Shown piece after piece: positions 6,283-39,494 of a stretch of 64,000 bases of DNA; the first letter of the stretch is position 1, and each line of letters opens with the position of its first letter. The translations under genes were made by a program, and so were the position numbers. The stretch spans positions 2,480,001 to 2,544,000 of the forward strand of contig OY725498.1 of the NCBI GenBank assembly GCA_963281255.1, given 5' to 3'. The stretch comes from Aphrocallistes beatrix (lineage: Eukaryota > Porifera > Hexactinellida > Sceptrulophora > Aphrocallistidae). Below the pieces are notes generated by a model. The model ran no database searches. It saw nothing but the letters and a program-made list of their open reading frames with translations, and was not told the origin of the DNA.

Positions 6283-6828
6283 TCCTTACTATTAAAACCC
6301 GATTAATCTATATGTGTGTATATATATATATCTCTGTAACGAATTGATTGAAGAAACTGCCAGGCACAGAAAGCTAATTTTTGGCATGCGGGAGTTTTTT
6401 TGCTATGGCTCCAGTAAGTTCTGAGTTCAGAGCAAAATGTTGACTCATCATGGAATTATGACGTCATTGTCACATTTTTAAAAGTTAAGCAATACAGTTA
6501 TTCGGGCATAACTCAGCCATTATAAGAGATAGAAGGCTGAAATTTTAATAGAATCTGTAGACTAACATATCTCACATATGATGCAACTATCATCAAAAAA
6601 TGATGACTAATCACTTTGTTATGATGTCATCATTACTCAGCAAAATTTTAAAAATTGACAAATTTGGTGATTTTTCGAGTGATATCGATTTTAAAACTAA
6701 GATGGACATATTTAGAGATGATATCTCCCTTATAATTAACCAAACTCACCTCCAGGCGACCGAAGGGAGCCTCTGGCGGACACTTTGTGTCCGCCAGCCG
6801 CGCAGCGCAAGCAAGCGAAGCGCGCTTG
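6283..6828 (+). mobile_element. HLE repeat (Helitron-like), full-length copy A
   Basis: A 546 bp element beginning TCCTTACTATTAAAACCCGA after an A and ending CGCGCTTG before a T. It has a (TA)n tract near the 5' end, TGACGTCA and ATGATGAC motifs in the middle, and three hairpins at the 3' end. One of these is a perfect 11 bp stem, CTGGCGGACAC-TTT-GTGTCCGCCAG (6773-6797); the last is CAAGCG-AAGCG-CGCTTG. No terminal inverted repeat is seen. The A/T insertion site, TC start and 3' hairpins fit a Helitron-type non-autonomous element, although canonical Helitrons end CTRR. Confidence 0.65.
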
Positions 6829-6987
6829 TTAAAATTAAAACGAAACTCACAACTCCATATTGAACATTCTCAGCTTATTTTGCAGCCAATATATCTCGAT
6901 ATTCTGGATATAGATCTGTAGTCCAACTCAATACAGTTTCTATGATCTCCTGATTCTAAAATTGAATTATTAGTCGTGCATTTAAAA

Positions 6988-7440
6988 TCAATGGGTCTTA
7001 AACATATCCAATTCGCACCCTCCCTCGATAGCCACAGATTCGGAAATGGTAGCCACTTCGAGTTCATAGTCTTCATGTGATACATCTATCCTAGATATAT
7101 TCGAGACCAGATTCTCGTAATTTGTTTCCCGTCCCCACCTAAATTGGAAGGGAGTGTACGAGTGCGAATTCTTAACAGTAGAATTCATACATATGACTAC
7201 AGGTTTAAGTACTGAACACCAATGCCAGTCTTCCAGTCTGAAATGTCATTTTGTTCAACTTAGTATAATTTAGTGCATTATTTGATAATTATACATAATT
7301 TATGTTTTATAACTGAATAAAATACCACTCACGATTTTAAACTTTTGTTGTGCGCTTCGACCAGTCCATTTGCCATCGGGTGATAGGCGCGAGTGCTCCG
7401 GTTGTCAACTTCTAATTTCTGATGAAATTGCTGGAAACTC
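6988..7440 (-). pseudogene. Integrase gene remnant, catalytic-E and C-terminal part
   Basis: On the minus strand, 7440-7338 encodes a segment with AYHPMANGLVEAHNKSLK, the HPQ(S/T)NGQVE motif that carries the catalytic glutamate of retroviral-type integrases. The part from 7188 down encodes NSTVKNSHSYTPFQFRWGRE, the 'YN..H.STG.SPF...FGR' block that follows it in Ty3/gypsy and GIN-like integrases. The two are separated by about 150 bp with a GTGAGT donor-like start and a CTGTAG acceptor-like end, but the phases do not match cleanly. The missing upstream half is at 9802-10260, beyond the Tigger insertion. Confidence 0.6.
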
Positions 7441-7660
7441 TTAAATTGAAAAAGAAAAGGGATATATATTTAATCATATCGATACAGTTAAATTGTTTCC
7501 TTAGGTTTGCTACTACTATGGACTTGTATATACACTGCAAGATCGATTTTACGAACAACTCGGGACCCAAACTGTTCGTAAAATCGAACTTTTCGTAAAA
7601 TCGATCATCCCAAGAAACTTAATTTATCTCTTAGCACAAGACTTGTGGGGAAATAAATTA

Positions 7661-7759
7661 CAGTAGAGTTCGCTTATTAGCAAATCGGGTTTTGCATTAG
7701 CAAACTTGCTTATAGGCGAACTTGCTAATAAGGCAATTGCTAATAAACGAACTATACTG
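7661..7759. mobile_element. 99 bp pogo-type MITE nested in the Tigger element
   Basis: The ends CAGTAGAGTTCGCTTATTAG and CTAATAAACGAACTATACTG are inverted repeats of about 23 bp with two or three differences. The element is flanked by TA on both sides (7659-7660, 7760-7761). The inside is made of further GCTAATAAG/TTAGCAAA blocks. Confidence 0.75.
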
Positions 7760-8069
7760 TACAATATTAACTTAGTACTAGTATTAACTTAGACTGAAAT
7801 TTATTATAACATTTTATTAATTACAAGAGAAACGCTATAGCAGTCCCTTTTGATTTGAAAGATAATGCAAATTCGATTACTTTCAATGAACTCAATGTAG
7901 AACGTACATAGATTTAAGTTACGTTTACTTAACCATGTAGTGGTTGGAACTACTACAAACTTCAAGTTCCAGATTACGCAATGAATTAGATGGTACATTG
8001 TTAGAATATCTAAACCAACCACAATTTGTTAGATTCATTTGTCTATATAGACGTGAGATTAGAAATTTG

Positions 8070-8275
8070 TTCCTAAAAATGAAACATTTTTGTTCGTAAA
8101 ATCGAATGTTTCTGTTCGTAAAATGGAACGTTTTTGTTCGTAAAATTGAATGTTTTGTTCGTAAAATGTAACGTTTTTGTTCGTAAAATCGAATGTTTCT
8201 GTTCGTAAAATGGAACTTTTTGTTCGTTAAATCGAATGTTTCTGTTTGTAAATTGGAACGTTTTTGAATACCAAA
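8070..8275. repeat. Minisatellite of the Tigger subterminal motif
   Basis: About nine imperfect units of 21-23 bp, each containing GTTCGTAAAAT followed alternately by CGAATGTTTCT or GGAACGTTTTT. The core GTTCGTAAAATCGA is the motif found once or twice inside each terminus of the surrounding transposon (7555-7610 and 9553-9615). The array replaces the 3' half of the transposase gene. Confidence 0.85.
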
Positions 8276-8339
8276 TCTAGCTTATGAGTTCCGGATGCAT
8301 TATCACAAGCCATCAATGTTACTCTCTCTTTATCGGTCT

Positions 8340-9000
8340 TGAACCTCTACTTTCAACTCATTAGGCCCTGCGAGTGTTTTAGTAGGTATCGCACGCCAAC
8401 ATAAACCTGTCTCATCTTAATTGTATACTTGGTCATGAGTTAAGTTCTCCTTCAAAATTATATCTTGAAAATTTTGAATGAATGAATCAATTGACTTTTT
8501 GTCTGCACTTCCCTTCTCTCCTACAGACCGCATGTGTCTAATTCCATGTCGTTTTTTGAATTTTCCGAGAAATCCTTCACCTAATTTGACATCTTTAGAT
8601 TTATCCTTCTCAAGTGCGAACCTATCAGCTTCACCTCCCTCGCTTTGTGCAGTTAACTTATTGTGAATGATTCTGGCCTTCTCTTGTAAAAGAGTGCCTG
8701 AAATTGGTTTACCAAGGGATCGTTGTTGATCGAAGAATACCTTCAAAGCTTCGTCAATTTTGGGTACGCTCCACTTTTCATTGTTTTTCTTGTATCAAAA
8801 TGGGGATTAGCGACGAGGAATGTTTCGATTTTCGGTCCAGATACATTTTTAATCTGACTAATTGTCGATCTCGGAATGCGATACTGAGACGCGATAGTAG
8901 AAGGAGTTGTACCCGCCTTCAACTTTTTATACACCTCAAGCTTCATTTCTAAACTGTATGAATATTTCTTTCTTTTAGCTGCTCTAATCTGAGATGCCAT
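8340..9000 (-). pseudogene. Tigger/pogo (CENP-B/Jerky-like) transposase, broken
   Basis: From 9000 down, the first frame gives an N-terminal psq-type helix-turn-helix (KRKKYSYSLEMKLEVYKKL then STIASQYRIPRSTISQIKN). After a frameshift near 8750, a CENP-B-type DNA-binding domain follows (GTLLQEKARIIHNKL, GFLGKFKKRHGIR). At about 8420 the start of the DDE domain appears as YN-stop-DETGLCWRA, where relatives have YNADETGL, so a TAA replaces the alanine. A little further on, ERVTLMACDNASGTHKLDL is readable in another frame, and then the gene runs into the minisatellite. The rest of the catalytic domain is missing, so no functional transposase can be made. Confidence 0.8.
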
Positions 9001-9785
9001 ATGTAAATTGAAATTTAAAAACTCTAAAGCCTATTGATATAATCTGATCATTTTAATATACAGTCAGATATTAGCCTACTTTCTTGAGTGATTGCGGTTG
9101 TACTTGTATATTATGAATCGTCCGAAGTATGTATTTACTCAGTGCCAGCGCCACCGGTTTAGAAGTGGTATTCAACAGTAAGATTGTTGAATAGCATTCC
9201 GAACAAAAGTGGTCAGGTTGAAACCTGACCGACCGCACTGGTGGCGCGGGCCTGTTACTTTGATTATTAATATATCGCAGTAATTGATTTCCGAATTGGT
9301 AAAAGGGATTTGACATTGTAATTGTGAAAGTATTTTTCGTCAAATTGGGCATTTGACATAATATTATGGGAATTATTAATTCATAAAATCGTTTTATAAA
9401 TTAGTAGATCTGCAATTTGTTCGTTGAGAAATTATATACATGGTCTACATTTTAGAAATTTGACACGTCAAATGATATTTTTTAAAATCTTTCTAATACA
9501 ACCAAAAATGTATTACAGAACTATTAAGTTAAATAATTTAGGTTTTTTTAGGAGTTCGTAAAATCGATCATATTTCAGATTTAGTACGTAAAATCGGTGT
9601 TCGTAAAATCGATCTTGCAATGTAGTTACAAGAAACACAATTCTCAATTCGATTACATGCATAGATGTACAATTTCAAGAAGAAGTCTTACTTATTAAGC
9701 ATTCTGCAAAATAAGACTCGAATTTAAGTATGCTACAGCTTTTAAATTAGAATTGCATCTTTAATTAAACAGACTTACTTTTGAG

Positions 9786-9855
9786 AAAACGACTGATGAA
9801 GTTATCGAAAACCTGAAATACAACTCAGGTTCTCGATAACTTCATCAGTCGTTTT
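9786..9855. repeat. 31 bp perfect-type hairpin inside integrase coding sequence
   Basis: The arms 9786-9816 and 9825-9855 are reverse complements over 31 bp with a single T/C difference, around an 8-base loop. The right arm is the integrase reading (KTTDEVIENL); the left arm is an inverted copy of the same codons. This is the footprint of template-switch or foldback repair, not of a transposon. Confidence 0.9.
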
Positions 9856-10260
9856 ACTCTTTAGAGGTCGCACTACGACATTCTTGCTCAAATAGCACCC
9901 TATATCGAGCAAGTGCTTGTTGCCTTCCGGACTGGGAGAAAGATCACATATAAAATCAACTTCGATATGATTCCATGGTTTCTCAGGAGAGGGATCGGAT
10001 GCAACCTTCTCTGAGGTTGAGGTGGCAATGACTTGTTTTGCTGGCAAGCATCACATGATTTCACCTTTTAATATTGAATTACAGGTTAATTCAATATAAA
10101 TTGAAATTGAGAACTAATGAACTAAGGTCACGTAGTTGACAATCTCTGAATACATTCCCAGCCAATAATAACGCTGCTGGAGACAGGCCAATCTCTGTTT
10201 TCTCTGCTGGATAGTCTCGTGTCCTTATCATGCTGCCTCCGGTGCAAGCGATTATCTTTT
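9802..10260 (-). pseudogene. Integrase gene remnant, zinc-binding and first catalytic part
   Basis: Minus strand. From 10260 to about 10137 a segment reads QRKQRLACLQQRYYWLGMYSE, the end of an HHCC zinc-binding domain ('RYYWPGM'). After about 75 bp with a GTGACC start and an AAAAG end it continues as KSCDACQQNKS (CxxC) and then PEKPWNHIEVDFICDLSP, the block with the first catalytic aspartate of Ty3/gypsy or GIN-type integrases. There is a frameshift between the CxxC and PW blocks, plus internal stops. The short gap behaves like an intron, as known for GINGER-type elements and domesticated GIN genes. It ends in the inverted duplication at 9786-9855; the C-terminal half is at 6988-7440. Confidence 0.65.
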
Positions 10261-10263
10261 AGT

Positions 10264-10970
10264 CAAACCAAAGCAACTTTGTACGTACATGAAAAATACT
10301 GGATAATTGAAAAATGTTCCCGCCATGCTGTGGCGTCTCAGGTTTAGAAACAAACTAATAATAATTTGTGCGCATTGTGTGTTTACCTTGTAGAGTAAAT
10401 ATCAATTTGGGAAAATCACGACATGTGGTTTGGCATGTCAGTCAATTAATGCAAAAGTTTATTTAAAATGATGATTCTTCTATTTTACCTCAAAGGAATC
10501 AAATAGATCATAAATGTAGGTATGATCTACGCATAGCCGTGAAGTTTTCTTTTGATTGTAAAAGTTGGAGTGACTATGAGCAAATAGAACGAGCGACGGT
10601 AACGGTGATGGTAGGTGAACTTGTCCTGCATATTTTCAAGTTTATTTTTAGACATTTAAATTTCGATCTACAGCAATAAAAACTTAAGTGAGAAAACTTA
10701 TATTAATTTATCTCACTGTCAATTTTTTCATGATATGAAGCATATATTTATCCAAAATTAAAGAGAAACAAGCTAAGTAGAGTGAGTAGTTAAAACATTG
10801 GAGGATCTTTCTGAAATTATTAGCTGGTCAATATTTGTATAAGTTTCCCTGGCATTGAACTACTCTTGTTTTCCAATGCTCCCTAAATCAGTGTTGCTTA
10901 TTATGAATCACCGAACACACAGCTGAAATATAAAATTGAGATACTTAATGTTAACGAATCAGTTGCAGTA
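10264..10970. other. No feature recognised
   Basis: AT-rich sequence with no convincing reading frame, repeat end or RNA gene. It lies between the integrase remnant and a pogo-type MITE. Confidence 0.5.
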
Positions 10971-10972
10971 TA

Positions 10973-11263
10973 CCCTCGGTAATCCGAACAGTTCTGTACC
11001 AATAATCGCAAAGTTCGTTCGGAATTAGCGAATTAACGCTAATTCAATGGGTAATAATTAGAATAAAATTGTATTGTTAGAATATTAAGGATAGTCTTTT
11101 GTTATTATTACTTTTTTAACTAGGTTTCTCAATCTTTTTGATGAAAGATATAGCATTATAATCGTTGATTCGAAGCTTAGAGGCAAATAAGTTTATATTT
11201 TTGGGTTTTCGGATTGTAAAAATTAAGTGCTTGCATTAGCGGGGGTTCGGATTAGCGATGGTG
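10973..11263. mobile_element. Pogo-type MITE (291 bp)
   Basis: Left end CCCTCGGTAATCCGAACAG and right end GTTCGGATTAGCGATGGTG form an imperfect inverted repeat, with TA on both outer sides. The inside carries GGAATTAGCG/CGCTAATTC blocks. A diverged single end of the same type occurs near 50207 (TCCTCGGTTATCCGAACAC). Confidence 0.65.
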
Positions 11264-13340: not shown

Positions 13341-13347
13341 AGGGAGC

Positions 13348-13836
13348 TATCTGTAACGAATTGATTGAAGAAACTGCAAGGGACAGAAATCCGATTTTTG
13401 CATTTGGGAGTATTTTGGCTATGGCTCCACTGGGTTCTGAGCTCAGACGAAAATGTCGGCTCATCATGGAATTATTACGTCATTGTCACCTTATATATTA
13501 TTAGAAATTTCAGTTTTTCAACCATAACTCAGCCATTTTAAAGGATAGCAGGCTGCAATTTTAATAGAATGTGTATATTAATATAGCTCACAGATGATGC
13601 ATCATCAAAAATTATGACTCATCACTCTGTATGACGTCATCATAACGCATCAAAATTAAAATATTGACAAATTTGGTGATTTTTCGTGCGATCTCGATAT
13701 TAACAGTAGGACAGACGTATTTAGTGCTGTTATCTCCCTTTTAATCAATCAATGTGACCCCAGGCGCCCAAAGGGCGCCTTTGGCGAACACAAAGTGTCC
13801 GCCAGCCGCGTACTGCAAGCAAGCAAAGCGCGCTTG
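13348..13836 (+). mobile_element. HLE repeat copy B, 5'-truncated
   Basis: Begins within the CTGTAACGAATTGATTGAAG segment and runs to the terminal hairpins GGCGCCC-AAA-GGGCGCC, GGCGGACAC..GTGTCCGCC (slightly mutated) and CGCGCTTG. It is followed immediately by TCCTTACTATTAAACTCGAT (from 13837), the 5' end of another HLE copy, so the two termini abut with no spacer. Confidence 0.7.
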
Positions 13837-14065
13837 TCCTTACTATTAAACTCGATTATTTTGTTTTTATGTATATACAAGCGCACGACGCTTACTTGCG
13901 ATGCGCGACTTGTGAACACTTCGTGTCTGCAGAGTTCCTCAGAGGTTGCTTGGGGATGTTAGAGAAACATTACGTCGCTTTCTTGTCCTCTACTAAGTAT
14001 GCTGAAATGCCATTTGTCTGCAGTTACATTTATGAAATCAGAACTATAGCAGAAAATTTTGGTTC
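13837..14065. mobile_element. HLE 5'-end fragment abutting copy B, then a diverged inverted 3' end
   Basis: The HLE 5' end (TCCTTACTATTAAACTCGAT) is followed after about 30 bp by ACAAGCGCACGACGCTTACT and GAACACTTCGTGTCTGC, a diverged HLE 3' end in minus orientation. The rest is not recognisable. Confidence 0.45.
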
Positions 14066-15472: not shown

Positions 15473-15476
15473 TTAA

Positions 15477-17200
15477 ATTCCCGAGATATAGAGATTTTGA
15501 TTTTAGATGCTAAGAAGAAATTAAAATGAGTTATTAAAAATGAATAAAAGCATTCAAAGGCTTTTATTCGCATTTATACTGATGATTTAGGTATATTCGA
15601 ACCTAATATTTACGTAAAATTGCAAAAGTAGGCTGAAAATCCACAAATTTCCTTGCGGCTCCTAACCCCGAATATTTTGAGATAATTGGAAAAAATATTC
15701 ATATTCCTAGCACTACAAAGTATAATCCATCAGTTTAGAATGAATAAAAAGCTTCCAAAAAGTAATTAGGAAGTTAGAGCGAAAGTCTACGACTTTTGTT
15801 TCCAAGTTTGTATTTTCAAAAAATGCACGTCATCATATGACAAAAATCTAAAACTTAACATTCCAGACGATGTAGTTCAATTATTATCAATGATCATATA
15901 AGTACCTCACAAAAAGTATATTCGGAAGTGAGAACTAAGAAGACTAAGAAGTGAGAACTAAGAGAGATAGAGAGATATCTCTTTTTGGACCCTAAATGGT
16001 GTTTTTGACCGACTCTGGGAGGTCCAAGGCTAGAAAATTCAAATAATTATCAAAAGTTTTTTTTTTTAACACATTATTAACGACATTTGTATTCATTATT
16101 TAGCATAATAGCCACTTTTGGATACATATTTCATGATTAAATTCGCCATTTTCTATTTTATTTAAAGTTCTCCATAGAATTTCTATTACAATCAAGTCAA
16201 TGATATGTCGAGAAATATTTATTTTTTGACAAAGAGATGTTTGAGGAACATATATATTTTCGCATATATCCTTTCGTTTAAGATTATAATAGATTATATA
16301 TCTTCAATAGTTTTTAAGATATGATATCGGCCTCTTTCGGGACCATAGAGATAAATTATGCCCAAACTTTACGTATAATAAGCAATATCTCACGAACAAA
16401 TATCGGATCTGAACAAATTTTTGAATCTATCAGAATTTTATTCCTGATCTAATGATCCTAAATATCTGATTTCAAAAATAGGCGATTTCCCGAGCATTAT
16501 ATAAATGAACTCCTTTATAGAGCTATTTTGTTAGATTTTATTTGACCATTCTTCTAAATCTTTGTGTTGTATATTCTCCGAATGTGCCAAAACAATGCTA
16601 AGGTCCATATCATTAAAAAAATGTTAAATAAGTTAAAAACTAATTGATAAATGTTTCAAAAACCTCCAATAATTTTTTCATTTTTTGTAACGCTAAACTT
16701 TAGGAGTTTAAATCATATAAATCAAAATAAAAACCGTCCAACTAGCACTATCAGATTATTGTCCGCTCAGTAATACAATAGAATTAACAACAACAAATTT
16801 TGCCGTTTCTTTTACTTCAGGCAAAGTTTTTCGTGGGTGGTATCCTTAATAACAATTAAAGTATGTTATATGTATAATCAATCAATTTGATGATAAATAA
16901 CTTTTAGCAATCAAATTATAGACTCAAAATAACTGTGTTCAATAATTTATATGAGATTGAATCGTGTGAATCGCATTATAAATTTCTGATAATTGATTGG
17001 TTCTCACATGAACGATGAATTTCAATCACAAATATACCTTTTAATTGTATGCAAAAGTCACTACTGTTTGATCCCGATGTATTTGCATTATAAAAGAAAC
17101 GAATTTCATTGGTCAGCACAATTTGTCACCTATCTTAGCGAGGTGTAAGGATATCAATTAGATCTTCGGGCTTGATCGTAGACTCATTATTATTTACCTG
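15477..17200. other. No gene recognised; AT-rich spacer
   Basis: No open frame of note, no terminal repeats. A short purine-rich tandem run (GAACTAAGA/GAGATAGAGA type) occurs near 15940-15985. Confidence 0.5.
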
Positions 17201-17202
17201 TG

Positions 17203-17586: not shown

Positions 17587-17591
17587 AGATA

Positions 17592-17857
17592 ATTTAATAT
17601 ACCTCACATACGATGCAACTATCATCAAAAAATGAGGACTCATTACTCTGTTATGAAGTCATCAATACGCATTAAAATCTTAAAAATTGCCAAATTTGGT
17701 AATTTTTCGTGCGATATCGATTATAACAGTAGGACAGACGTATTTAAGGATGTTATCTACCTTGTAATTATTCAATGTGACTCCAGGCGCCCAAAGGGCG
17801 CCTCTGGCGGACACAGTGTCTGCCAGTCGCGCAGCGCAAGCAAGAGAAGCGAGCTTG
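17592..17857 (+). mobile_element. HLE repeat copy C, 3' half
   Basis: Starts abruptly 5 bp after the SINE head within the CTCACATACGATGCAAC segment and ends with the GGCGCCC-AAA-GGGCGCC hairpin and GAGCTTG. The 5' half is missing. Confidence 0.65.
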
Positions 17858-18109
17858 TATTTATTATAAACAAAAGTTTATTTAGTGAGACCTTTAGGTA
17901 ACATTAAATCCTTGCTTTTATAACTCGATTAATGTTTATATATGTATCTATGGAAGTATGTATACCCTAATCCAGCGGTTTTCAACCATTTTTAGCTGTC
18001 GCCTCCTATATCAATTTTCCTATATTCTCTGTCATTGCCGCCTTTTTTATAATTGGAATTTACAGTTTTTTTGTATTTTTGGTGATAGAAAGCTGAAATT
18101 TTAATAGAA

Positions 18110-18598
18110 CAAGCCCGCTTCGCTTGCTTGCGGGTTGCGGAAAGGGGATAACATCTCTACATACGTCTGGCTAACTGTTATAATCGCTATCGCACGAAAA
18201 ATCACCAAATTTGCCAATTTTTTAAATTTTGATGCTTAACCCTAATTGGACTTGGAATGTTGAAGTGAAAGTGAAAGTTAATTGAAAGTGAACTGAAAGT
18301 GAAAATGAAAGTGGGATTTTTCTATTTATACCTTTGACCCCAAGTCCAAGTAGGGTTAATGATGACGTCATAACAGAGTAATGAGTCATCATTTTTTGAT
18401 GATGGTTATTTCATATGTGAATATATTAATATACACATTCTATCATCACTGATGGCTGAGTTATAGTCGAAAACCTGAAATTTCTAATGATAAAAATGGT
18501 GACAATGACGTCATAATTCGATGATGGGTCGACATTTTCGTCTGAGCTCAGAACTTAGTGGAGCCATAGCCAAAAGACTCTCACATGCTAAAAATCAT
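18110..18598 (-). mobile_element. HLE repeat copy D
   Basis: Minus orientation, starting CAAGCCCGCTTCGCTTGCTT (hairpin end) and losing the upstream two hairpins. It continues through TGACGTCA motifs to the CCATAGCCAAAAGACTC segment and is then truncated. It is inserted in a fragment of another HLE (18080-18109, plus orientation) and is itself interrupted by a piggyBac-type MITE. Confidence 0.65.
18240..18355. mobile_element. 116 bp piggyBac-type MITE
   Basis: Exact TTAA on both sides (18236-18239, 18356-18359). Ends CCCTAATTGGACTTGG and CCAAGTCCAAGTAGGG form a 16 bp inverted repeat with one mismatch. TTAA-CCCT...AGGG-TTAA is the classic piggyBac terminus. The inside is a (GTGAAA)n-like purine repeat. 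It interrupts HLE copy D. Confidence 0.85.
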
Positions 18599-18599
18599 C

Positions 18600-20653: not shown

Positions 20654-20677
20654 TCCTTACTATTAAAACTCGATTAA

Positions 20678-20708
<31 letters not shown>

Positions 20709-20710
20709 GT
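20654..20710 (+). mobile_element. HLE 5' end with (TA)n tract, truncated
   Basis: TCCTTACTATTAAAACTCGA followed by about 30 bp of TA repeats, then unrelated sequence. Confidence 0.6.
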
Positions 20711-21107
20711 ATTGCAACTGAGATAAATAGATATTCCAAATATGATTTTCAGATCTATTGTATTTGGGCCTTCCTATTGTTATCTTATCAAAAATTAAAA
20801 TATTAGAAGTGCAGATAACGATGTTTAAATTGAGCTAGAACAGCAGCGTTTTAGTTCTAAAAAGAGCCTATTGCGCAATTACATACACTGTTATTAATGT
20901 CTATCTTACACGGCTTTTGATTTATCAGTCTATTTAACTTTGAATTGTCTTCAAACTGGCCTTCTATTTTTCAAGCTTTCTTGGCGGCACACACCGCCGT
21001 GCATTAAATAGTCCATGGTCGAAGGTATATACAGAGATATTTCACTCTATGATGAGTTAAACTCATGTGATGTTGTGGAAAGTCCCAAATAGGAACTGAA
21101 ATTTTGA

Positions 21108-21290
21108 GAAACTATGACCCCAGGCGCCCAAAGGGCGCCTCCGCTGACACAAAGTGTCCGCCAGCCGCGCAGCACAAACAAGCGAAGGGCGCTTGTTACT
21201 ATTAAAACTTGATTAATGTTTATATACAAGTATGTGTATCCTTACTATTAAAACTCGATTAATGTTTTGTGTGTCTGTGTATATAATTAT
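21108..21290 (+). mobile_element. HLE 3' end joined to two HLE 5' ends
   Basis: A 3' end with all three hairpins (21115-21195, ending GGGCGCTTG) is followed directly by a slightly shortened 5' end (TTACTATTAAAACTTGATT, 21196) and then by a second one (TCCTTACTATTAAAACTCGA, about 21239). This head-to-tail joining of termini recurs at 13836/13837. Confidence 0.65.
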
Positions 21291-21317: not shown

Positions 21318-22161
21318 GGGTTGATAAAATCTGATTTATAAAAAAATCAAAAAAATCATTTTAAAAAATTTAAATCAGTTTTTTTTATTTAATTCGGATT
21401 TTTTATTTCAATCGGATATTTTTGATTTAAATCAGATTTTTTTAATTTTTATTGCTTTTTGCAATTCATTTCATATTTTGTCATATTATTTTGCTAATAA
21501 ATCCACAAGATTGAGAATCAGATAGTTTAATAGCATATAATATATTTAATTCTGCTTGAATTCAGCATGTTTATGATAATTGCAATAGGAAAATGTAGAG
21601 GAGAAATTTAGCACGCAGTTTTATATATAAAAACGCTCATCACTTGCTACCCGCCCGGAGGCTCCCTTTGGTCGCCTGGGGTCACATTGGTTAATTATAA
21701 GGGAGATAGCATCTCTAAATATGTCTGTCCTACTGTGATAATCGATATCACTCGAAAAATCACAAGATTTTTCTATTTTGAAATAATTCCATGATGAGTC
21801 GACATTTTGCTCGGAACTCAGAGCTTACTGGAGCCATAGCCAAAAGACTCCCACATGCCAAAAATTAGCTTTCTATGACCGGCAGTTTCTTCAATCAATT
21901 CGTTGCAGATATATATATATACTATATAAACAAATAAATATTAATCGAGTTTAATAGTTAGGATAGATTGAGCATTCTGTGGATAAAAATTATCTTGGCC
22001 GCCTTATCGATTCCAAATCTATTACTTATGTTAGAATGTATATAGCCAAATCTTGAAAATATCCGCTCAATTCCTGCACTTGATGCCAGAGCTGAATAAT
22101 TTAATTTTTGATTGTAAAAAAGCCATTGATGAATATTGTTCACAATAATATGTGTGATCAT
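21318..22161 (-). pseudogene. hAT transposon remnant: one end and a C-terminal dimerisation fragment
   Basis: At 21318 CAGGGTTGATAAAATCTGAT begins a run of GATTT/AAATC repeats typical of the ends of one hAT group. On the minus strand, 22161-21958 encodes LASSAGIERIFSRFGYIHSN followed by NRFGIDKAAKIIFIHRMLN. This is the hAT C-terminal dimerisation motif (SSAGIERvFS..G.IHs..RNRLg..KA.kLvFI...LN). The rest of the transposase is lost, and an HLE copy (21650-21963) lies between the terminus and this fragment. It is a different hAT lineage from the element at 44293-46662. Confidence 0.7.
21650..21963 (-). mobile_element. HLE repeat copy F, internally deleted
   Basis: Minus orientation. The hairpin end (GGAGGCTCCCTTTGGTCGCC) is truncated and the middle with the motif pairs is deleted. 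The 5' end is intact (ATTAATCGAGTTTAATAGTT then AGGA, 21963). Confidence 0.65.
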
Positions 22162-22312: not shown

Positions 22313-22690
22313 AGGCGCCCAAAGGGCGCCTGGGGTCATTTTGAATAATCATAAGGGATATAACATCTCTAAATACGTCTGCCCTGCTGTTATAATCGAT
22401 ATCGCACGAGAAATCGCAAAATTTCTGAAATTTTCCAATTTTGATGCATAATGTTGACGTCTTAACAGAGTGATGCGTCATCATTTTTTGATGCTAGTTG
22501 TATCATATGTGAAATATTTGAATATACAGATTCTATTGAAATAGCTTTCTATTACTTAAAATGGCTGAGTTATTGTCAAAAACTGAAATTTCTAATTATA
22601 AAAAAGTTGACAATAAAGTCATAATTCCATGATAATTTACATTTTTGTCTGAAGTCAGAACTTAGTGGAGCCTTAGCCAAAGTAGTTTCA
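22313..22690 (-). mobile_element. HLE repeat copy G
   Basis: Starts inside the GGCGCCC-AAA-GGGCGCC hairpin and runs through the TGATGCGTCATCA region to the GAACTTAGTGGAGCCTTAGCC segment, where it stops. A diverged pogo-type end (CTCGTTAATACGAATCAGGG and GTATTATCCGGAATTCGTAT) lies just left, at 22178-22250. Confidence 0.6.

Positions 22691-27601: not shown

Positions 27602-27653
<52 letters not shown>
27602..27653. repeat. (TA)n microsatellite, ~52 bp
   Basis: A pure TA run joining the right end of the MITE to the left end of the Tc1-like element. Both elements target TA. Confidence 0.95.
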
Positions 27654-27656
<3 letters not shown>

Positions 27657-29021
27657 TTTGTCCCATAATTATTGCAACATACATTTTTGATATAAATTTG
27701 ATTATATAGGAAGAGTGAATCGTCTTAAACTAATTCTATTGAGTCTAAAAGTTAATGATAGACATAGTAACTAATAATTAATTTTAAAACCATTGTTTGT
27801 GACACACAATTCGCAACGTCGCCTCATTGATTTATAGTAGGGCTTTAGAAACTCCGGGGTGATAGAATTCCAAATTTCTTCAAGGCGAGTTTTCATGTCA
27901 CCAATTGTCTTTGGACGATTCCTTTTCAGTTGATTTTTTATCCATGCGAATAGGTTTTCGATGGGGTTTAAGTCTGGGCTCTGACTGGGCCAATCTAAGA
28001 CATTATTAGGAATGTTGTCTGATATCCACTTCTTCGCCCGCTTGCTGGTATGCTTGGGATCATTGTCCTGTATCAAGAACCACTTCTTATCGTGGTAAAC
28101 CTTGGCGTTTTCTACCAAATGCCACTCTAATATCTTCACGTAGAAAGCGGCATCCAAATTATGACTAAAAATGCATAAGGGAAACGTCCCCATTGAGGAA
28201 AAGGCAGCCCATATGTGGACTTTACTGGAATGTTTAACAGTAGGAATAACCCGTTTTTGGTTCCCTTTAGTCCACATTCGTACTTTCCCCGCATGCAACC
28301 AAAAACTAGCCTCATCAGAGAATACTGCATGGCACCAATGCTTATTTTTGTTTCTTAGTGCCCACTCAATCCGTTTCAGCCTATTTTTCTCTGACAACAT
28401 CGGAACCAAACTAGGATAAGGCTTCGAGTATTTCATCTTCTGAAGGGTCCTATGCACGGTGCTCTTGGACACACTGATACCATGTTTGGCTTCTATATCA
28501 TTCGATATTTCTCTGACTGGCTTTTGCAAATCAGTGTTTACATATTTAGCACATTTATACTTGACGCTCTGATAGAGTTTTGCTGGTCTTCCTGCTCCCT
28601 TTCTGTGTTCAACCGTACCAGTCGAATTGTGTCTCTTAAGAACCCTCCAAACTGTTGTCCGGTTGACACCGATAATGGAAGAAATTTCCTTGACACTGTG
28701 CTTCTCACCTTCGGAAAGTGTAAGGATCTGTTTACGGATATCCTCTCTTGACATTTTATGACTGGTTAAACGAAAATGATGATTCTCTATGTTAGAACAC
28801 TATCTTAGAAGGAATTCAGACAAAAATGATGACGTAACAGGAAAAAATATGGATAATACGAAAAAAAAATTCTTCAAAAAAATATATCCAAGCTGAAAAA
28901 TATCGAATAACGTACATAGGAACTAAAAATAATGCGTTAGTAGCTTATGCAATGTAAACATAGCTGAAACGTATAGTTCAATGAGAAATAGCATATGTTG
29001 CAATAATTATGGGACAAACTG
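27654..29021 (-). mobile_element. Complete Tc1-like transposon, 1368 bp
   Basis: Perfect 28 bp terminal inverted repeats starting CAGTTTGTCCCATAATTATT, flanked by TA at 27652-27653 and 29022-29023. The single internal gene (27771-28754, minus) is uninterrupted. Perfect ends plus an intact gene indicate a recent insertion, probably into a TA-rich tract. Confidence 0.92.
27771..28754 (-). CDS. Tc1-like transposase, intact, 327 aa
   Basis: Cut-and-paste transposase that would bind the 28 bp terminal repeats and insert at TA. Residues ~1-60 form the first helix-turn-helix (VKEISSIIGVNRTTVWRVLK), followed by the GRPAK hook and a second helix-turn-helix (~80-110, STVHRTLQKMKYSK). The catalytic core has FSDEASF (first Asp, ~residue 147), IQDNDPKHTS (second Asp, ~233) and SPDLNPIEN (Glu, ~269). 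I count 35 residues between the second Asp and the Glu, so a DD35E rather than the classic DD34E spacing. Length is normal for Tc1 proteins (~340). It starts at the first ATG, 267 bp inside the right terminus, and there is no intron or stop. The only intact DNA-transposon gene in the window. Confidence 0.93.
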   Translation of the reverse strand: MSREDIRKQILTLSEGEKHSVKEISSIIGVNRTTVWRVLKRHNSTGTVEHRKGAGRPAKLYQSVKYKCAKYVNTDLQKPVREISNDIEAKHGISVSKSTVHRTLQKMKYSKPYPSLVPMLSEKNRLKRIEWALRNKNKHWCHAVFSDEASFWLHAGKVRMWTKGNQKRVIPTVKHSSKVHIWAAFSSMGTFPLCIFSHNLDAAFYVKILEWHLVENAKVYHDKKWFLIQDNDPKHTSKRAKKWISDNIPNNVLDWPSQSPDLNPIENLFAWIKNQLKRNRPKTIGDMKTRLEEIWNSITPEFLKPYYKSMRRRCELCVTNNGFKINY

Positions 29022-29281
29022 TATATATATATACACATTAATTGAGTTTTAATAGCAGCCTTCATCACCTAAAATGGCTGAATTATATTGGAAAACTTTT
29101 TAATTTATATTTACTGTATACAAAAGTTGGCAATGGAGTAATATTTCCATTATAATTGACATTCTGGTCTGTGGTCAGAACTTAGTGGAGCCATAAATAA
29201 AAGACTCCCACAGCCAAAAATCAGCTTTCTGTGCCTTGTAGTTTCTCAATCAATTCGTTAGAGATATACTATATACGTATA

Positions 29282-29711
29282 TCCTTACTACTAGAACTCG
29301 ATAAATGTATAATCTCTTAAACGAGTAGATAGATGAAACTGCTTGGCACGTATTGTTTTCACATATTGGAGTATTTTGGCTATGGCTCCACTAAGTTCTG
29401 ACCTCAGACCAAAATGTCGGCTCATCATGTATTTATGCAACGTTATCGCTTAATTTTAGAATTTCAGTTTATCTATTATAACTCCATTTTAGGTGTTAAG
29501 GCTGAAATTTTAATACAATTTTATAGAAATATATCTAAATATGACACAACTCTCAAAATGATGACTCATGTCGACTCGTCACACTAATAACATCTTCAAT
29601 ATCCATCAAAAATTGAAAATTGACAAATTTTGTGATTTTTGGAGTGATTTCCCTTGCAACAGTAAGACAGACGTATTTAGTGATATTACCGACTTTATAA
29701 TTAATCAATGT
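29282..29711 (+). mobile_element. HLE repeat copy J, 3'-truncated
   Basis: Begins TCCTTACTACTAGAACTCGA after an A and follows the family through TGACTCATG and the TTGACAAATTTTGTGATTTT segment. It stops at TAATTAATCAATGTAGGCC before the hairpins. Confidence 0.65.
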
Positions 29712-30359: not shown

Positions 30360-30924
30360 TCCTTACAATTAAAACTCGATTAATGTGTATATATATATAT
30401 ATCCATAGTATTAAAACTCGATTAATGTCAATATATGTATATATATATATACTATATGTGTATTTATATAAATATATCTCTGTAACGAATTGATTGAAAA
30501 ACTGCATGGTACAGAAAGCTGATTTTTGGCTATGGCTCCACTAAGTTCTGAGCTCAGACGAAAATGTCTACTCATCATTGAATTATGACGTCATTATCAC
30601 CTTTTTTAAAATTAGAAATTTCAGTTTTTCGACCATAATTCAGCCATTTTTAGTGATAGAAGGCTGAAATTTAATAGAATGTGTGTATTATTATATCATC
30701 AAAAAATGTTGACTCATCACTCTGTTATGACTTCATCATTACGCATCAAAATTTTAAAAATTGACAAATTTGGTGATTTTTCGTGCGATATCGATTATAA
30801 CATTAGGACATACGTATTTAGAGATATTATCTCCCTAATAATTAATCAATGTGACTCAGGCGCCCAAAGGGCGCCTCCGGCGGACACAAAGTGTCCGGCA
30901 GCTCAAGCAAGCAAATTGCGCTTG
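30360..30924 (+). mobile_element. HLE repeat copy K, full length
   Basis: TCCTTACAATTAAAACTCGA start after an A; the 5' end is partly repeated at about 30401 (AGTATTAAAACTCGATTAAT). It has a TA tract, TGACGTCA, a TTGACTCATC motif, then hairpins GGCGCCC-AAA-GGGCGCC and GGCGGACAC-AAA-GTGTCC, and ends GCGCTTG before a T. Some 3' hairpin bases are lost (GGCAGCTCAAGC). Confidence 0.7.
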
Positions 30925-32056: not shown

Positions 32057-32604
32057 CAAGCGGGCTTCGCTTGCTTGCGCTGCGCGGCTGACGGACACTT
32101 TGTGTCCGCTGGAGGCTCCCTTCGGTCGCCTGGGGTCACATTGGTTAATTATAAAGGAGATAACATCTCTAAATATGTATGTCCTACTGTTATAATCTAT
32201 ATCGCAAGAAAAATCACCAAATTTATCAATTTTTAAAATTTTGGCTGAGTAATGATGACGTCATAACAAAGTGATGAGTCATCATCTTTTGATGATAGTT
32301 GCACTATATGTAAGATATGTTAGTATACAGATTCTATTAAAATTTCAGCCTTCTATCTCCTATAATGGCTGAGTTATGCTCGAATAACTGTATTGCTTAA
32401 CTTTTTAAAATGTGACAATGACGTCATAATTCCATGATGAGTCGACATTTTGCTCTGAGCTCAGAACTTACTGGAACCATAGCCAAAAGACTCCCACATG
32501 CCAAAAATTAGCCTTCTACGCCTGGCAGTTTCTTCAATCAATTCGTTACAGATATATATATATACATATATACACAAACAATAATCGAGTTTTAATAATA
32601 AGGA
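32057..32604 (-). mobile_element. HLE repeat copy L, full length (548 bp)
   Basis: Minus orientation. From 32057 CAAGCGGGCTTCGCTTGCTT, then the hairpins with loop TTT (GACGGACACTTTGTGTCCGC), TGACGTCA twice, TGAGTCATC and TGAGTCGAC, then CAATTCGTTACAGATATATA and the 5' end, whose reverse complement is TCCTTATTATTAAAACTCGA. It is flanked by A and T, as in copy A. Length and order agree with copy A, so these two define the family. Confidence 0.75.
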
Positions 32605-33561: not shown

Positions 33562-33607
33562 ATGACATCCAGTATTTTGTAGATATCTACGAAATACTGG
33601 CTGTCAT
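33562..33607. repeat. 46 bp loop-less palindrome
   Basis: Centred on GATATC, with arms ATGACA/TGTCAT and CCAGTATTT/AAATACTGG around GTAGATATCTAC. Only two base pairs are mismatched. No flanking duplication suggests a transposon. Confidence 0.9.
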
Positions 33608-34146
33608 TATGAATATAGAGGGACGATCAAGAAATTCATTTAATTTTTCCTTTTACCAGAAAATCCAATTCAGTGTGTACCTCCAGTTCCTAAATATGAC
33701 CATATATCGGTTTTAAAAAGCACGCTGTTGCAAATACTTTCATATCCGTTACCCACTTCCCATTCTTAACCATCCCTGTCTTATTTACCCAATCCTTCAC
33801 ACTTCTGTAGTTACTTTGCTTGTAAACATATTTAGTCATTAAAAAGTGTCACTCTTTTTTAATCTTCCTATCATATTTGTAGCTATAATTGTGTGTAAAT
33901 TAAAAGGATTTTCCTGACTACCAGTAAGGCTAAACGAAAGAGCTCGAAAGTAACAATTTCCATCCCCCACAATTTTTTCAACAACACAAGGTTACAATCT
34001 CTAAGATCTTGTTGATCCAACTGAGGATCGATTTCATAATAAATATAATTAGAAACCAAAATATTCCATTTACTACAAATACTTTTTTATTTGGCGGGCG
34101 GAAGTGAAGATATTTTAAACGTAAATATCTTGTTCTACAGGATCTG

Positions 34147-34193
34147 AATCAGTGATAATATCTGCAGCGTCACTGTCGATATTATCACTGATT
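34147..34193. repeat. Hairpin with 16 bp perfect stem
   Basis: AATCAGTGATAATATC and its exact reverse complement GATATTATCACTGATT are separated by 15 bases. It is not followed by a T-run, and this is a eukaryote, so a terminator role is not proposed. Confidence 0.85.
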
Positions 34194-34522
34194 CGTGAGA
34201 CAGAAAAGCTACTACGTTTTTTCAAATGAATGATCTCGGACGCAACCTAGCTTCAAATTTTAGCTTTGTTTTTATTTTTATCTACACTAATTTACCTTTC
34301 TTTTTTTCAGTTTCATTTATATCATTAACTCGATCTGATTTTCTTATATTTTGATTATTTACTAATGGTCTAACTTGAGAAAAACTGCCATTCCTCCTGA
34401 CAATTCTCTTCCTCAGAAGGAATTCTTTTACGTTTATAACTTTCAAATACCTTCTTAGCTCTAGGATTAAAACAAATCAAAAAGCTGCTAATATTTTAAT
34501 TAAGTTCGATTTCTTTCGAGGA

Positions 34523-34948
34523 TTAAGAATGTTTTTTGGCAAAAATCTTCTGGTACCGCAACTTTTTAAGGGTTCTCTGGATTGTCCGTTTAGATGCGTC
34601 AATACCTGTACGGTCGAGAAGTTTAGACTTCATTTCATTGAGAGTGGTTGCTCCTCTTGATCGTCGAATTTGTTGAACTAAGCTAGCTTTGATCGCATTA
34701 GATTTTACTGCCGGTCTACCTGCACCTCTGCTGTGTGCTAGGTTCTTGCCATTCTTCAATCTTTTGATGACATTGAAGACAGTGGCACGGGAGACGGCTA
34801 GTATCTTTTGAATGTCATTGACAGTATGCACACCTGTTTCCCATAGTACCTTTATGCGTATACTCTTTTCAGATTGTGACATTAGTTTGATATCAAGCAA
34901 CAAAATATGCTAAGAGATACAAAATGCGTAAAAAATGTCCGGTCACTG
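34523..34948 (-). pseudogene. Tc1/mariner transposase, N-terminal fragment with one terminal repeat
   Basis: Minus strand, about 120 codons from 34903. Two helix-turn-helix regions are readable: VNDIQKILAVSRATVFNVIK and, after the hook SRGAGRPAV, DASKRTIQRTLKKLRYQK. The catalytic domain is absent. The outer end at 34948 reads, inward, CAGTGACCGGACATTTTTTA, nearly the terminus of the MITE at 27146. So this is the 5' half of an element truncated at its other end. Confidence 0.8.
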
Positions 34949-35243
34949 TCATAAAATGAAAATTATGAATCAATGATTGATATTAATTACAGAAGCGATA
35001 ATTAAATTTGAATAACATAACATGAATTTACAAGAAATGCTATAATCATTGAATAACACATGCATTCAAATTCGGCATTTGGGTCAATAAGAAACATACA
35101 GTAGTCTAAATAAATATGTCACCCTACTGTATGTAGGAAATAGGATATTTCTGCAAGTGAATGAGTTGAACTAATCATTTCAGCTGATGGCAAAGGGCTA
35201 GTTGTGACATCGCTCAAAAAATCGCCAAATTTGACAATTATTC

Positions 35244-35761
35244 AATTTTTGCTGAGTAATGATGACGTCATTACAGAGTGATGAGTCATCATTTTTTAAT
35301 GATAGTTAAGTAATTTTAGAATATATTAATGTACACATTCTATTAAATTTCAGCCTTCTATCACCTAAAATAGCTGAGCTATAGTCGAAAAACTGAAATT
35401 TATAATTAGTAAAATGTGACAATGACGTCATAACTTAGTGGAGTCATAGCCAAAAGACTCCCACATGCCAAAATCAGCTTTCTATGCATATCAGTTTCTT
35501 CAAACATATATATATATATATATATACACATTAATCGAGTTTTATTGTAAATATTTTTGTTAAAATTTACACTTATATTTCGTCTTTCATTAACAAACCT
35601 TGATAGACTTAATGAGACATCTATGATATAACAGAATATCATATATGATGCTTCTGGGAGATTTCTCTCAAAGCTATACTTGTCTTTCTATGTCGGTCTT
35701 TCAATTTCGGACGAAAACAAAATTGTGGATTTATGCATATTTTAAAGTTATACGCTGGACC
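35244..35761. repeat. Left copy of a ~520 bp direct repeat around the LINE
   Basis: It matches 38973-39494 at roughly 95% identity. It consists of most of an HLE copy in minus orientation (TGACGTCA, TGAGTCATCA, CATAGCCAAAAGACTCCCAC, TA tract, ATTAATCGAGTTTTATTG) plus about 230 bp of unrelated flank ending CGCTGGAC. The shared flank shows that this is a duplicated locus and not two independent HLE insertions. Confidence 0.85.
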
Positions 35762-35799
35762 TTTAAAAACAAACTTTAAGCAAAACTAAATACAGTTAT

Positions 35800-38700
35800 C
35801 AGAACATTTCCAAACCCCTCTCGCTCGCTCTGATCGCTCGCGGGATATAAGTGCTCCGCACCTGTCCACAAGTCAAATCCCAACCATAATATTCTGAGCG
35901 TGCACAGCGATAAGCACGTACAACTCTACGCAACCCATCCAACCTCACTACAATCAAAACTCTGCCAGCCACTCCTCGATCCCAAGCCTCTTGTTTCTTC
36001 TTCCGCTGTCTCAACATTCGTAATCTGAAGAAGAAATCTGCTCACCGCCCTGGTATCGTAGCCATTACTGAGACATGGCTCACACCAAGTGATGCTGCCG
36101 CCCGAATTTAATGCACGCCACCTGGATATAAGCTAGCTGACCAAATGAGTTCTACCCGCCTTCACGGAGGAGGTAATGCGCTCTTATACAACGTCCTCCT
36201 CAGTATCAAGCGCAACTCTTCTGGCGAACATCAATCCTTTGAGTTCTCTGACTGGACCATCCACGCGAAAGATCTGCGTTTGCGAGTCGTCATTATATAC
36301 AGACCCCCATACTCTGAATATCACCCTGTTTCCATTACCACTTTCCTCACAGAATTTTCTTCTTTCCTTGAATCCATCGTCATCTGCAGTGAACCACTCA
36401 TTATCACCGGCGACTTCAACATCCATGTTGACGATGAGTCAGATTCTATAGATTTCTTAGACATACTCCGATCTATGTCGCTCGAGCAACATGTCCATCA
36501 ACCAACACACGAAAAAGGACACACTCTCGACTTAATCATCACCCGATCTCCTGACACAATGATTTCTTCCATCCCTGCTGCTGATGAACTCTTCTCTGAT
36601 CACTTCTCCGTGTCCTGTTCTCTTTCCTTTCCGAAACCACACCTATCCTCCAAGATAGTCACTCCACGTTCAAAAGATCTCGATCTCTCTCTATTTCTTG
36701 AAGATCTCTCCTCTTCCAATCTCTTCACGAATCCTCCTGAACATCCTGATGATCTCCTTCAATTATACAATACCACCTCACGTGCAGTCTACGACCACCA
36801 TGCACCAATTCGTCAGAAAACCATTCAACCACGCGCCGTCGCGTACCGTGGTTCAACAACACCATCAAAGCGAACCATACAGTGCAGAGGGAAAGCTGAG
36901 CGCAAGTGGCACTGTTCAGCCAAACCAGATGACCTGGCTGTCTTCAAAGAGAAAAGAAACATCACAACATCCCTGATGAATCAGGAGCGTCATAGCTTCT
37001 ACTCTGACTGGATAGGTCAAAGTCACAATGACCAGCGTCAGCTTTTTCGGAAAGCAAAAACTCTCCTTGGATTGGACAACAAACACTCCCTTCCTCCTCA
37101 CTCTGTCCTGTAGAACTATGTAACGAAATCGCCAACTTCTTCATCCAAAAAGTCAACACCATTAAGACGTGCATCGCCTCCGCTGCCTCACCGACTTCTT
37201 CTATCCCCACTTCTGACCCTGAAGTTCTTACTCGCCACCAATTCTCTTCATTCAGCGAACTATCTGACGAAGATATTAAGCGTCTAGTAACTTTTGCCCC
37301 AAATAAGACCTGCGACCTTGATCCCATCCCGACCAAGCTGGTCAAATCATCCCTACACATTCTAGCTCCTACGCTGAAGAAAGTCATCAACACCTCACTC
37401 TCTACCGGTTATTTTCCATCTGTGTGGAAACGTGCTATCATCCGGCACAAACTCAAGAAACCTAACCTTGATCCGATACTCTCCAACTACCGCCCGGTCA
37501 GCAACCTGTCTTTCCTCTCTAAACTTACTGAAAAACCTGTCTCCACTCAAATTGTAGACTATCTAACAGCTCAGGATCTCTTCCCCGGAACGCAGAGCCT
37601 ATAGGAGATACCATAGTACGGAGACTGCGCTCCTGAAAGTCAAGAATGACATTCTCCTGAACATGAATCGGCAGCACGTCACTCTTCTTGTTCTTCTGGA
37701 TCTAAGCTCAGCGTTTGACACCATCGACCACACCGTCCTGCTTCAACAACTTCAGACACGCTTCGGCATCTCTGACACATTGCTATCATGGTTCAGATCC
37801 TATCTATCTGACAGACACCAATATGTTTCAATCAATGGATCCCACTCCGCTGATCATCCTCTTGAGCATGGCGTCCCACAAGGTTCCTGTCTTAGTCCTC
37901 TGCTCTACACTCTCTACACCAGCCCTCTTTTTGAAATCATCAGATCCCATCTCCCTGAGATGCACTGCTATGCTGATGACACACAAATATCTCTCTCCTT
38001 TAAACCAAACCCGACAACATCAGATAATCCCGCACTTATCGCCATCGAGTCGTGCGTAGCTGACATCCGTGCGTGGCTACTAAACAACAGCCTTCTCATC
38101 AATGACTCCAAAACCGAAATCCAGTTCATCGGAACCAGACAACAACTCTCCAAAATCCACCTTGATAGTCTTACAATCGCCTCCTCTCGAATCCCACCAT
38201 CTTAAAGAAGTACGGAACCTAGGTGCATGGTTCGATGACACCCTTTCCATGTCAACACATGTCACTAAAGTTGACGGCTCTTGTTTCTATTTTCTCTACA
38301 ACATCCGTCGGATTTGGAAATATCTCTCTCGACAAAGCTGCGAAATTCTTGTGAATGCTCTCGTGACCTCTCGTCTTGACTACTGTAACGCTCTTCTCTA
38401 CGGTCTCGCTTCCAAACTTCTCTCTCGACTCCAACGTGTCCAGAACAGTGCAGCCAGACTTATCCACAATTTTTCAAGATTCTCACCATCCTCTCCTCTG
38501 CTCTTCGACCTACACTGGCTGCCTGTGAAATATCGCACTCTTTTTAAAATCCTTCTCCTCACCTATAAAGCCATCCACTCTTTAGCACCAGATTACATCA
38601 TCCAACTTATAAAAGTAAAACATCCGTAACGTTCTCTGAGATCCAATGGAGCTATTCTTCTCCAACATCCAGCAATCAAATCATCTAAAACTCTTGGTGA

Positions 38701-38935
38701 CCGTTCCTTCTCTATAGCTGCACCCATAGAATGGAATATTCTTCCCCCCACGATCCGAAACGCGACGTCTCCCGATATCTTTAAGAAACTCCTCAAAACC
38801 CATCTCTTTAAAATCGCATTCAACACACCACACCTGCAATAACACATCCACACCAAACACATCATTCGCACCGAACACATCATTCGCACCGAACACATCA
38901 TCCGCACCAATTTCTGGTCAGAGCACTTGAACATA
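35800..38935 (+). pseudogene. CR1/L2-like LINE (non-LTR retrotransposon), degenerate
   Basis: Reverse-transcribing element with GC content well above its surroundings. From about 36030 the endonuclease starts (LNIRNLKKK, GIVAITETWLTPSD); 36145-37113 is open and holds LIITGDFNIHVDD and SDHFSVSCSL, conserved APE-type endonuclease motifs. The reverse transcriptase is spread over shifted frames: SNYRPVSNLSFLSKLTEKPV (37480), LDLSSAFDTIDHTVLL (37695), HGVPQGSCLSPLLYTL (37870) and CYADDTQI with the catalytic YADD (37965). The C-terminus has SRLDYCNALLYGL, RLQRVQNSAARLI and GDRSFSIAAPIEWN, as in CR1/L2-type elements. At least four frameshifts or stops make it inactive. ORF1 was not recognised upstream, so it is probably 5'-truncated. 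Confidence 0.85.
38845..38915. repeat. 18 bp tandem repeat at the LINE 3' end
   Basis: About three and a half units of CACCGAACACATCATTCG. CR1/L2-type LINEs often end in short tandem repeats rather than poly(A), so this probably marks the 3' tail. Confidence 0.75.
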
Positions 38936-38972
38936 TAACAATGGAATCTGCGCTTAATAACTGTATTTTATT

Positions 38973-39494
38973 AATTTTTGCTGAGTAATGATGACGTCAT
39001 AACAGAGTGATGAGTCATCATTTTTTATGATAGTTATGTCATTTTAGAATATATTAATGTACACATTCTATTAAATTTCAGCCTTCTATCACCTAAAATA
39101 GCTGAGTTATAGTCGAAAAACTGAAATTTAGAATTAGAAAAAAGGTGTCATAACTTAGTGGAGCCGTAGCCAAAAGACTCCCACATGCCAAAAATCAGCT
39201 TTCTATGCATATCAATTTCTTCAAACAATTCATTACTGATATATATATATATATATATACACATTAATCGAGTTTTATTGTAAATATTTTTGCTAAAATT
39301 TACACTTATATTTCGTCTTTCATGAACAAACTTTGATAGACTTAAGGAGACATCTATGATATAACAGAATATCATATATGATGCTTTTGGGAGGTTTCTC
39401 TCAAAGCTATACTTGTCTTTCTATGTCGGTCTTTCAATTTCGGACGAAAACAAAATTGTGGATTTATGCATATTTTAAAGTTATTCGCTGGACC
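38973..39494. repeat. Right copy of the ~520 bp direct repeat around the LINE
   Basis: Same order and orientation as 35244-35761; begins AATTTTTGCTGAGTAATGAT and ends CGCTGGACC. It is followed by about 185 bp of sequence and then the assembly gap. Confidence 0.85.

Follow-up and report, generated by a model that had tools for sequence, protein, structure and literature searches.

We concluded, at a probability of roughly 0.93, that a short repeat scattered through a stretch of the Aphrocallistes beatrix genome (Porifera; Hexactinellida) represents a large nonautonomous Helitron family that would be moved by 9-10 kb Helitrons of the same genome that encode a Rep-helicase (RepHel) protein. The window, that is, the whole stretch of 64,000 nucleotides analyzed, comprises bases 2480001-2544000 of contig C12 (OY725498.1) in a genome of 100,537,919 bases and 28 contigs. 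The small copies lack genes. Their 5' tip is that of the RepHel Helitrons (TCCTTA.. or TCTTATAT..), and the final 120-150 bp are likewise shared; the RepHel protein carries an HUH motif, paired tyrosines, and a Walker A motif, and the elements lie between A and T without target-site duplication. Because its 3' end is CTTG, we placed the family in the Helitron superfamily without calling it a canonical (CTRR) Helitron.

Family Copies and Their Tips

A first-pass annotation of the window had described about 15 copies, three of them complete. Merging of BLAST rows gave about 16 family stretches within positions 6283-39283, plus short lone 5' tips (for example, at 17909 and 24929), and none of 20 dinucleotide-shuffled windows gave a match of at least 60 bp. 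The three complete copies were read directly at the positions and strands annotated (table 1); each starts with TCCTTA after an A, has a TA-rich tract a few tens of base pairs inside the 5' end, and ends with CTTG before a T. For the copy at 30360-30924 the annotated ends were correct, and its 5' tip proved to be doubled, with a second start at 30402. The reported lack of terminal inverted repeats was examined on the ends of the copy at 6283-6828: local alignment of its first 40 nt with the reverse-complemented last 60 nt scored 4.0, whereas 500 shuffles averaged 4.9 and 488 of them scored as high.

Genome-wide, tips were counted as exact pattern matches, a method that misses older copies. There were 2,873 exact 5' tips, preceded by A in 2,730 cases and by another base in 143, and 4,059 exact 3' tips (last 20 bases), followed by T in 3,987 cases and by another base in 72; thus, about 95-98% of exact tips had the A/T flanks which, with the 5'-TC, characterize canonical Helitrons (Helitron1). 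Backward-read control patterns gave no match in any of these four flank counts. The identical 3' tip ending in CTRR occurred only 19 times, compared with 4,059 for CTTG, so the noncanonical end noticed in the window holds across the family. Among the matches listed, G preceded 70 of 100 non-A 5' tips (hand count), as tandem joints predict. When mismatches were allowed in the examined sequences, A preceded 34/38 small-family tips and 8/9 RepHel-type tips, and T followed 44/47 3' ends; this count omits L001, which is the same copy as 6283-6828.

RepHel Partner Elements

A profile search with PF14214 (Helitron_like_N) identified 106 stretches in the genome and none in 14 control genomes, and 20 kb was examined around 10 of the 106. 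Five of these regions contained RepHel elements of 9,144-10,201 bp, with an A before the 5' tip and a CTTG end. They start with TCTTATATAT, or in one case TCTGATATAT; identity to the 6283-6828 copy is 79-84% over the final 120 bp, and the next base is T in four of them. A sixth element, C2:3986500, is the nearest to the small family: its TCCTTA tip follows an A, its left end is 88% identical to a small copy over 491 bp (with the last 14 bases missing there), and its right end, which is followed by T, is 91% identical over 151 bp. Its RepHel frame has 1,959 codons, and the left block adjoining this gene was found again on C17 (87% over 270 bp). Automated end pairing gave no RepHel-length pair of ends in the remaining four regions. 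Two lineages were apparent: the C11, C1, C2:4496500, C2:6213000, C4:3507500, and C7 copies are about 97-99% identical over multi-kilobase stretches, and C17 and C2:3986500 form a separate lineage at 65-69% identity. Open frames of about 1,950 codons are kept in three full-length elements. The C7 region also contained a 618-bp short element of another kind with a RepHel-type 5' tip (2305-2922, minus strand, joined coordinates), which is joined head-to-tail to the 9.5-kb RepHel element. Viral contigs searched with RepHel pieces and both tips gave no match.

The RepHel frames, searched in pieces against Pfam, matched Helitron_like_N (9.8e-59), PIF1 (7e-79), and Pif1_2B; a Rep nuclease and a PIF1-type helicase, as expected of the Helitron superfamily, therefore lie between the same ends as those of the small copies. 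The HAH (HUH) motif and the paired-tyrosine stretch were present in all four frames examined, and Walker A (GPGGTGKT) in three, the exception being C11, whose frame is split in two. Among solved structures at a threshold of 0.001, the single match was the bat Helraiser (7lcc, E 1.3e-212). The N-terminus contains 8-9 tandem repeats of 23 residues each (lag-23 autocorrelation 0.57, 0.57, 0.50, and 0.38 in four frames). In C2:3986500 these repeats matched Pfam STPRs with 63.5 bits (cut-off 27); in the other lineage (C11/C2/C7) there was no Pfam STPRs match, the 23-residue period alone being visible, and the repeats matched silkworm FMBP-1 weakly (E 0.11). Neither did an N-terminal stretch of Helraiser match Pfam STPRs.

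Empty Sites

For the C11 element (9,949 bp), the two flanks put together matched an unrelated repeat in four copies, one of them at 15530-15615 in the window, at 86-87% identity over 154 bp through the joint, without a base duplicated or lost; the letters at the joint were A^A, A^T, G^G, and A^A. On C4:3196500, two more matches (72-77%) were found. Weaker empty sites were obtained for 30360-30924 in the window (a gapped 72% match, A^T), for L005 (one flank TA-rich and poorly aligned), and for the C2:4496500 element (a 3-base difference in the TA run at the joint). The combination that marks the Helitron superfamily, absence of both terminal inverted repeats and target-site duplications, was thus found, with four good empty sites for one element. 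Taken together, the Helitron-like organization read from the window was borne out, since the RepHel elements with the same termini and the duplication-free empty sites, both of which the first-pass annotation had proposed to look for, were recovered.

The 3' Hairpins

Folded as single-stranded DNA, the three full copies had 3' ends more stable than shuffles (z -4.39, -4.91, and -2.88). The first-pass annotation had described three hairpins with conserved stems and loops switching between AAA and TTT, suggesting a maintained structure; comparison of 44 distinct 3' ends (out of 47) upheld this in part. The stem of hairpin 2 was well kept (278/307 cells paired, 91%), hairpin 1 less so (258/350, 74%): in the commonest subfamily, that of 6283-6828, hairpin 1 (GGCGACC-GAA-GGGAGCC) has two mismatched pairs (19 and 18 of 44). 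Loops of hairpin 2 were AAA in 23 ends, GAA in 11, TTT in 2, and others, so the switch is not confined to AAA and TTT. Pairing in hairpin 3 reached 92% in the terminal form, 88% in the outer stem, and 70% in the inner stem, not above shuffles, and covariation in hairpin 3 did not go beyond shuffles either. The paired counts of hairpins 1 and 2 were reached by 7 and 6 of 500 shuffles, where the aligned rows are related copies, and their two-sided changes (10 and 5 cells) were equalled in 19 and 39 of 500. Covariation was therefore dropped as a structural proof, given the related rows, the few two-sided changes, and the result for hairpin 3.

In the three folded copies, hairpin 3 either stops 4 nt short of the 3' end or takes it in, and hairpin 2 stops 31 nt short of it. 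Three ends, at 18110 in the window, C4:1247500 (14406), and C2:4496500 (2599), resemble the family over approximately the last 30 bases only; since this block is all that they have in common with the family, it points to the last ~30 bases as the putative essential terminator.

Weighing the Explanations

By analogy with Helraiser, RepHel would nick at the 5'-TC, peel off one strand, and halt at the GC-rich 3' hairpins acting as terminator; it would then cut after CTTG, and the strand, or a circle as in Helraiser, would be inserted into an AT-rich target between A and T, leaving no duplication. Head-to-tail units would result when termination is missed, and the small copies would be mobilized in trans, again by analogy with Helraiser. 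Several points weigh against placing the family among RepHel-driven Helitrons in this way. The 3' end is CTTG where a canonical Helitron (Helitron1) has CTRR, and hairpin 3 does not lie at the canonical 10-12 nt before it; the 143 and 72 exact tips without A or T, and the A behind the RepHel element C2:6213000, depart from the expected flanks. Moreover, mobilization in trans is suggested by the shared ends alone, and no transposition was observed.

The first-pass annotation had also likened the repeat to HINEs. OTU domains are associated with Helentron-like proteins, and one RepHel lineage has an OTU domain above the cut-off, while that of C2:3986500 falls below it. High copy number, an internal microsatellite, and a palindromic 3' end are likewise traits of DINE-1/HINE elements (PMC4067079), which derive from Helentrons of the Helitron2 branch. 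However, HINEs and Helentrons have a preference for TT and possess subterminal inverted repeats (PMC4067079), whereas the present elements insert between A and T and no such repeat was found between the first 40 and last 60 nt of 6283-6828; nor did two RepHel frames, searched in pieces, match any endonuclease family in Pfam, the 3-4 kb between frame and 3' end lying outside the profile search. We therefore rejected a HINE/Helentron origin, on the A/T target and the tested ends, as very improbable. Still more remote is a MITE-like (miniature inverted-repeat transposable element) derivative of a DDE transposon: the copies are short, AT-rich, and numerous, and Tc1-like genes occur within the window, but the copies have no terminal inverted repeats, no duplication at matched empty sites, and both ends in common with the RepHel elements. 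On these grounds it was rejected.

TA Tracts and Arrays

Exact CTTG|TCCTTA head-to-tail junctions occur 91 times in the genome. Tandem Helitrons are known and have been interpreted as bypassed termination (PMC4067079, PMC5876387). TATATA directly followed 717 of the 3,987 exact 3' tips and preceded 377 of the 2,730 exact 5' tips, compared with 285 and 270 of 26,734 AT sites in 264 kb of examined sequence, a repeat-rich background and no random sample; outside family copies the background was 149 and 134 of 24,757, and 136 of the 285 sites lay in or at family copies. By hand count, TATATA followed 2 of 32 3' ends in the window and RepHel regions, against 18% of exact tips genome-wide; the latter probably mark younger copies. 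The direction of this bias was already known, because Helraiser likewise favors AT-rich flanks, chiefly on the 3' side (PMC4778049).

Around the 47 5' tips examined, 6 stood directly after another tip, 5 after the inverted body of the family itself, and 4 in tandem; downstream of 39 tips we found the family's own body (19), another tip (5), an inverted 3' end (2), or other sequence (13). On C3 (1569682-1569836), four 5' tips follow in series with 40-42 bp spacing, forming an array of tip plus TA tract. For a single fixed position in the tract, the genome has 16 cases of a 5' tip next to the inverted own body and one of CTTG followed by the own body in direct orientation at the matching position. 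Simple nested insertion predicts similar numbers and is thus a poor fit; on this count, self-targeting was rejected as the only cause of the arrays.

As an alternative to nested insertion, we considered recombination between palindromic TA tracts (those within the element and those beyond it) as the source of the doubled and inverted 5' tips, a tentative proposal to which we gave slightly under even odds. It accords with the excess of inverted over direct cases and with the serial tips on C3. However, direct and inverted cases were similar among the examined tips (6 and 5 of 47), a RepHel-type tip directly after a small-family tip on C1 requires insertion, and few direct cases would also result if a composite unit, running from an outer tip as far as the first 3' end, were transposed, as has been proposed for FoHeli of Fusarium (PMC5148889). 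It is rather unlikely, in our estimate, that the STPR array on RepHel steers insertion into TA tracts; a TA run satisfies ATNTWTNTA, the AT-rich motif bound by the STPR of FMBP-1. Among 24,487 AT sites taken as controls, 794 and 815 had this motif, compared with 3/29 and 3/30 of the 25-nt flanks (p 0.067 and 0.077). If the array did so steer, every insertion would add a new landing site in the copy's own TA tract and seed nested and tandem arrays.

Some of the other sequences after tips resemble Tc1 or pogo-type ends within the TA tract (L002:485-997, L006:3494-3538, and C17 near 1357), and the Helitron TA tract may be a landing site for TA-inserting transposons.

Relation to Known Systems

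Helraiser/Helibat1 and HelibatN are the closest counterparts, alike in the RepHel protein, in the 5'-TC, duplication-free A/T insertion, and AT-rich target flanks, and in tandem copies and many short nonautonomous relatives (PMC4778049, PMC5876387, PMC4067079). Helraiser, however, ends in CTAG and has a single palindrome, of 19 bp, placed 11 nt inside the end, whereas the present family ends in CTTG and has as many as three hairpins, the last of which adjoins or takes in the end; an N-terminal stretch of Helraiser also differs from the N-terminus of C2:3986500 in giving no Pfam STPR match. CTTG ends are not new: they have been described for HELPO2 of Pleurotus ostreatus, which is also alike in A/T insertion, a subterminal hairpin, and RepHel (PMC4289320) but differs in being fungal. 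They also occur in some Helraiser truncation products, where the authors cite maize Helitrons (PMC4778049). FoHeli of Fusarium oxysporum likewise has multiple 5' tips ahead of one 3' end, for which self-insertion was proposed, but differs in its asymmetric terminal inverted repeats, Helitron2-like nature, and target TNAT|T in two subgroups (PMC5148889). The STPR domain of FMBP-1 resembles the RepHel N-terminus in its tandem 23-residue repeats; FMBP-1, a transcription factor, has four repeats and binds ATNTWTNTA (PMC4821344), whereas here 8-9 repeats are fused to RepHel. Among the matches listed in a literature search from which subscription journals were mostly absent, there was no triple-hairpin Helitron end, no STPR with a Helitron, and no title on an STPR transposase.

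Thus, the family is ordinary in kind, and its non-CTRR end, abutting hairpin, and RepHel front part are unusual. A screen for CTRR with a hairpin 10-12 nt inside would overlook it. With full-length RepHel elements beside an abundant nonautonomous family, termination at a CTTG end with an adjacent hairpin can be tested against Helraiser, and the 23-residue repeat array is a candidate for how a Helitron selects AT-rich targets.

Features of the Window

The family copies and related features are given in table 1.

Table 1. Family copies, termini, and an empty site in the window
Feature	Position	Strand	Remarks
Full-length nonautonomous copy, 546 bp	6283..6828	+	A before, T after; TA tract near 6316-6331
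3' hairpins of the 6283-6828 copy	6754..6828	+	H1 6754-6772 (imperfect), H2 6773-6797, H3 6799-6824
CTTG terminus of the 6283-6828 copy	6825-6828	+	Directly after H3
Alternative terminal hairpin CAAGCG/CGCTTG of the 6283-6828 copy	6812-6828	+	Takes in CTTG
Copy shortened at 5' side (positions 51-546 of 6283-6828)	13350..13836	+	
5' tip fused to CTTG of 13350-13836	13837..13877	+	Degenerate head-to-tail junction 13836/13837
Uninterrupted copy of other repeat, empty site for C11 RepHel element	15530..15615	-	Match through joint
3' portion of a copy	17595..17857	+	T after
Rearranged copy	18110..18595	-	Family-like in last ~30 bases of 3' end only
Both family ends (1-56, 470-546), nonaligning middle	20654..21195	+	
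Lone 5' tip	21239..21285	+	Downstream of 20654-21195 element
Internally deleted copy (1-177 + 365-494)	21655..21963	-	
Copy without ends (116-490)	22313..22681	-	
Diverged 5' portion of a copy	29048..29275	-	
Diverged copy	29282..29711	+	Tip follows inverted body of 29048-29275 neighbor
Full-length copy, 5' tip doubled (30360, 30402)	30360..30924	+	A before, T after
Full-length copy, 548 bp	32057..32604	-	A before, T after
Diverged copy, 3'-shortened	35206..35550	-	
Diverged copy, 3'-shortened	38967..39283	-	

Other mobile elements lie in the same window. An open 327-codon frame of Tc1/mariner type (DDE_3, HTH_Tnp_Tc3_2) was found at 27771-28754 (minus strand), near a perfect (TA)26 run at 27602-27653. 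Pieces of the long interspersed nuclear element (LINE) type at 36145-38629 (plus strand) comprise frames for an endonuclease (Exo_endo_phos_2) and a reverse transcriptase (RVT_1), and an open 1,396-codon frame at 56883-61073 (minus strand) is Gypsy-type by eye, showing stretches like a zinc knuckle, a reverse transcriptase, and an integrase. A related 31-bp unit forms two arrays, at 40447-40897 and 41219-41365, which seem to run in opposite orientations.

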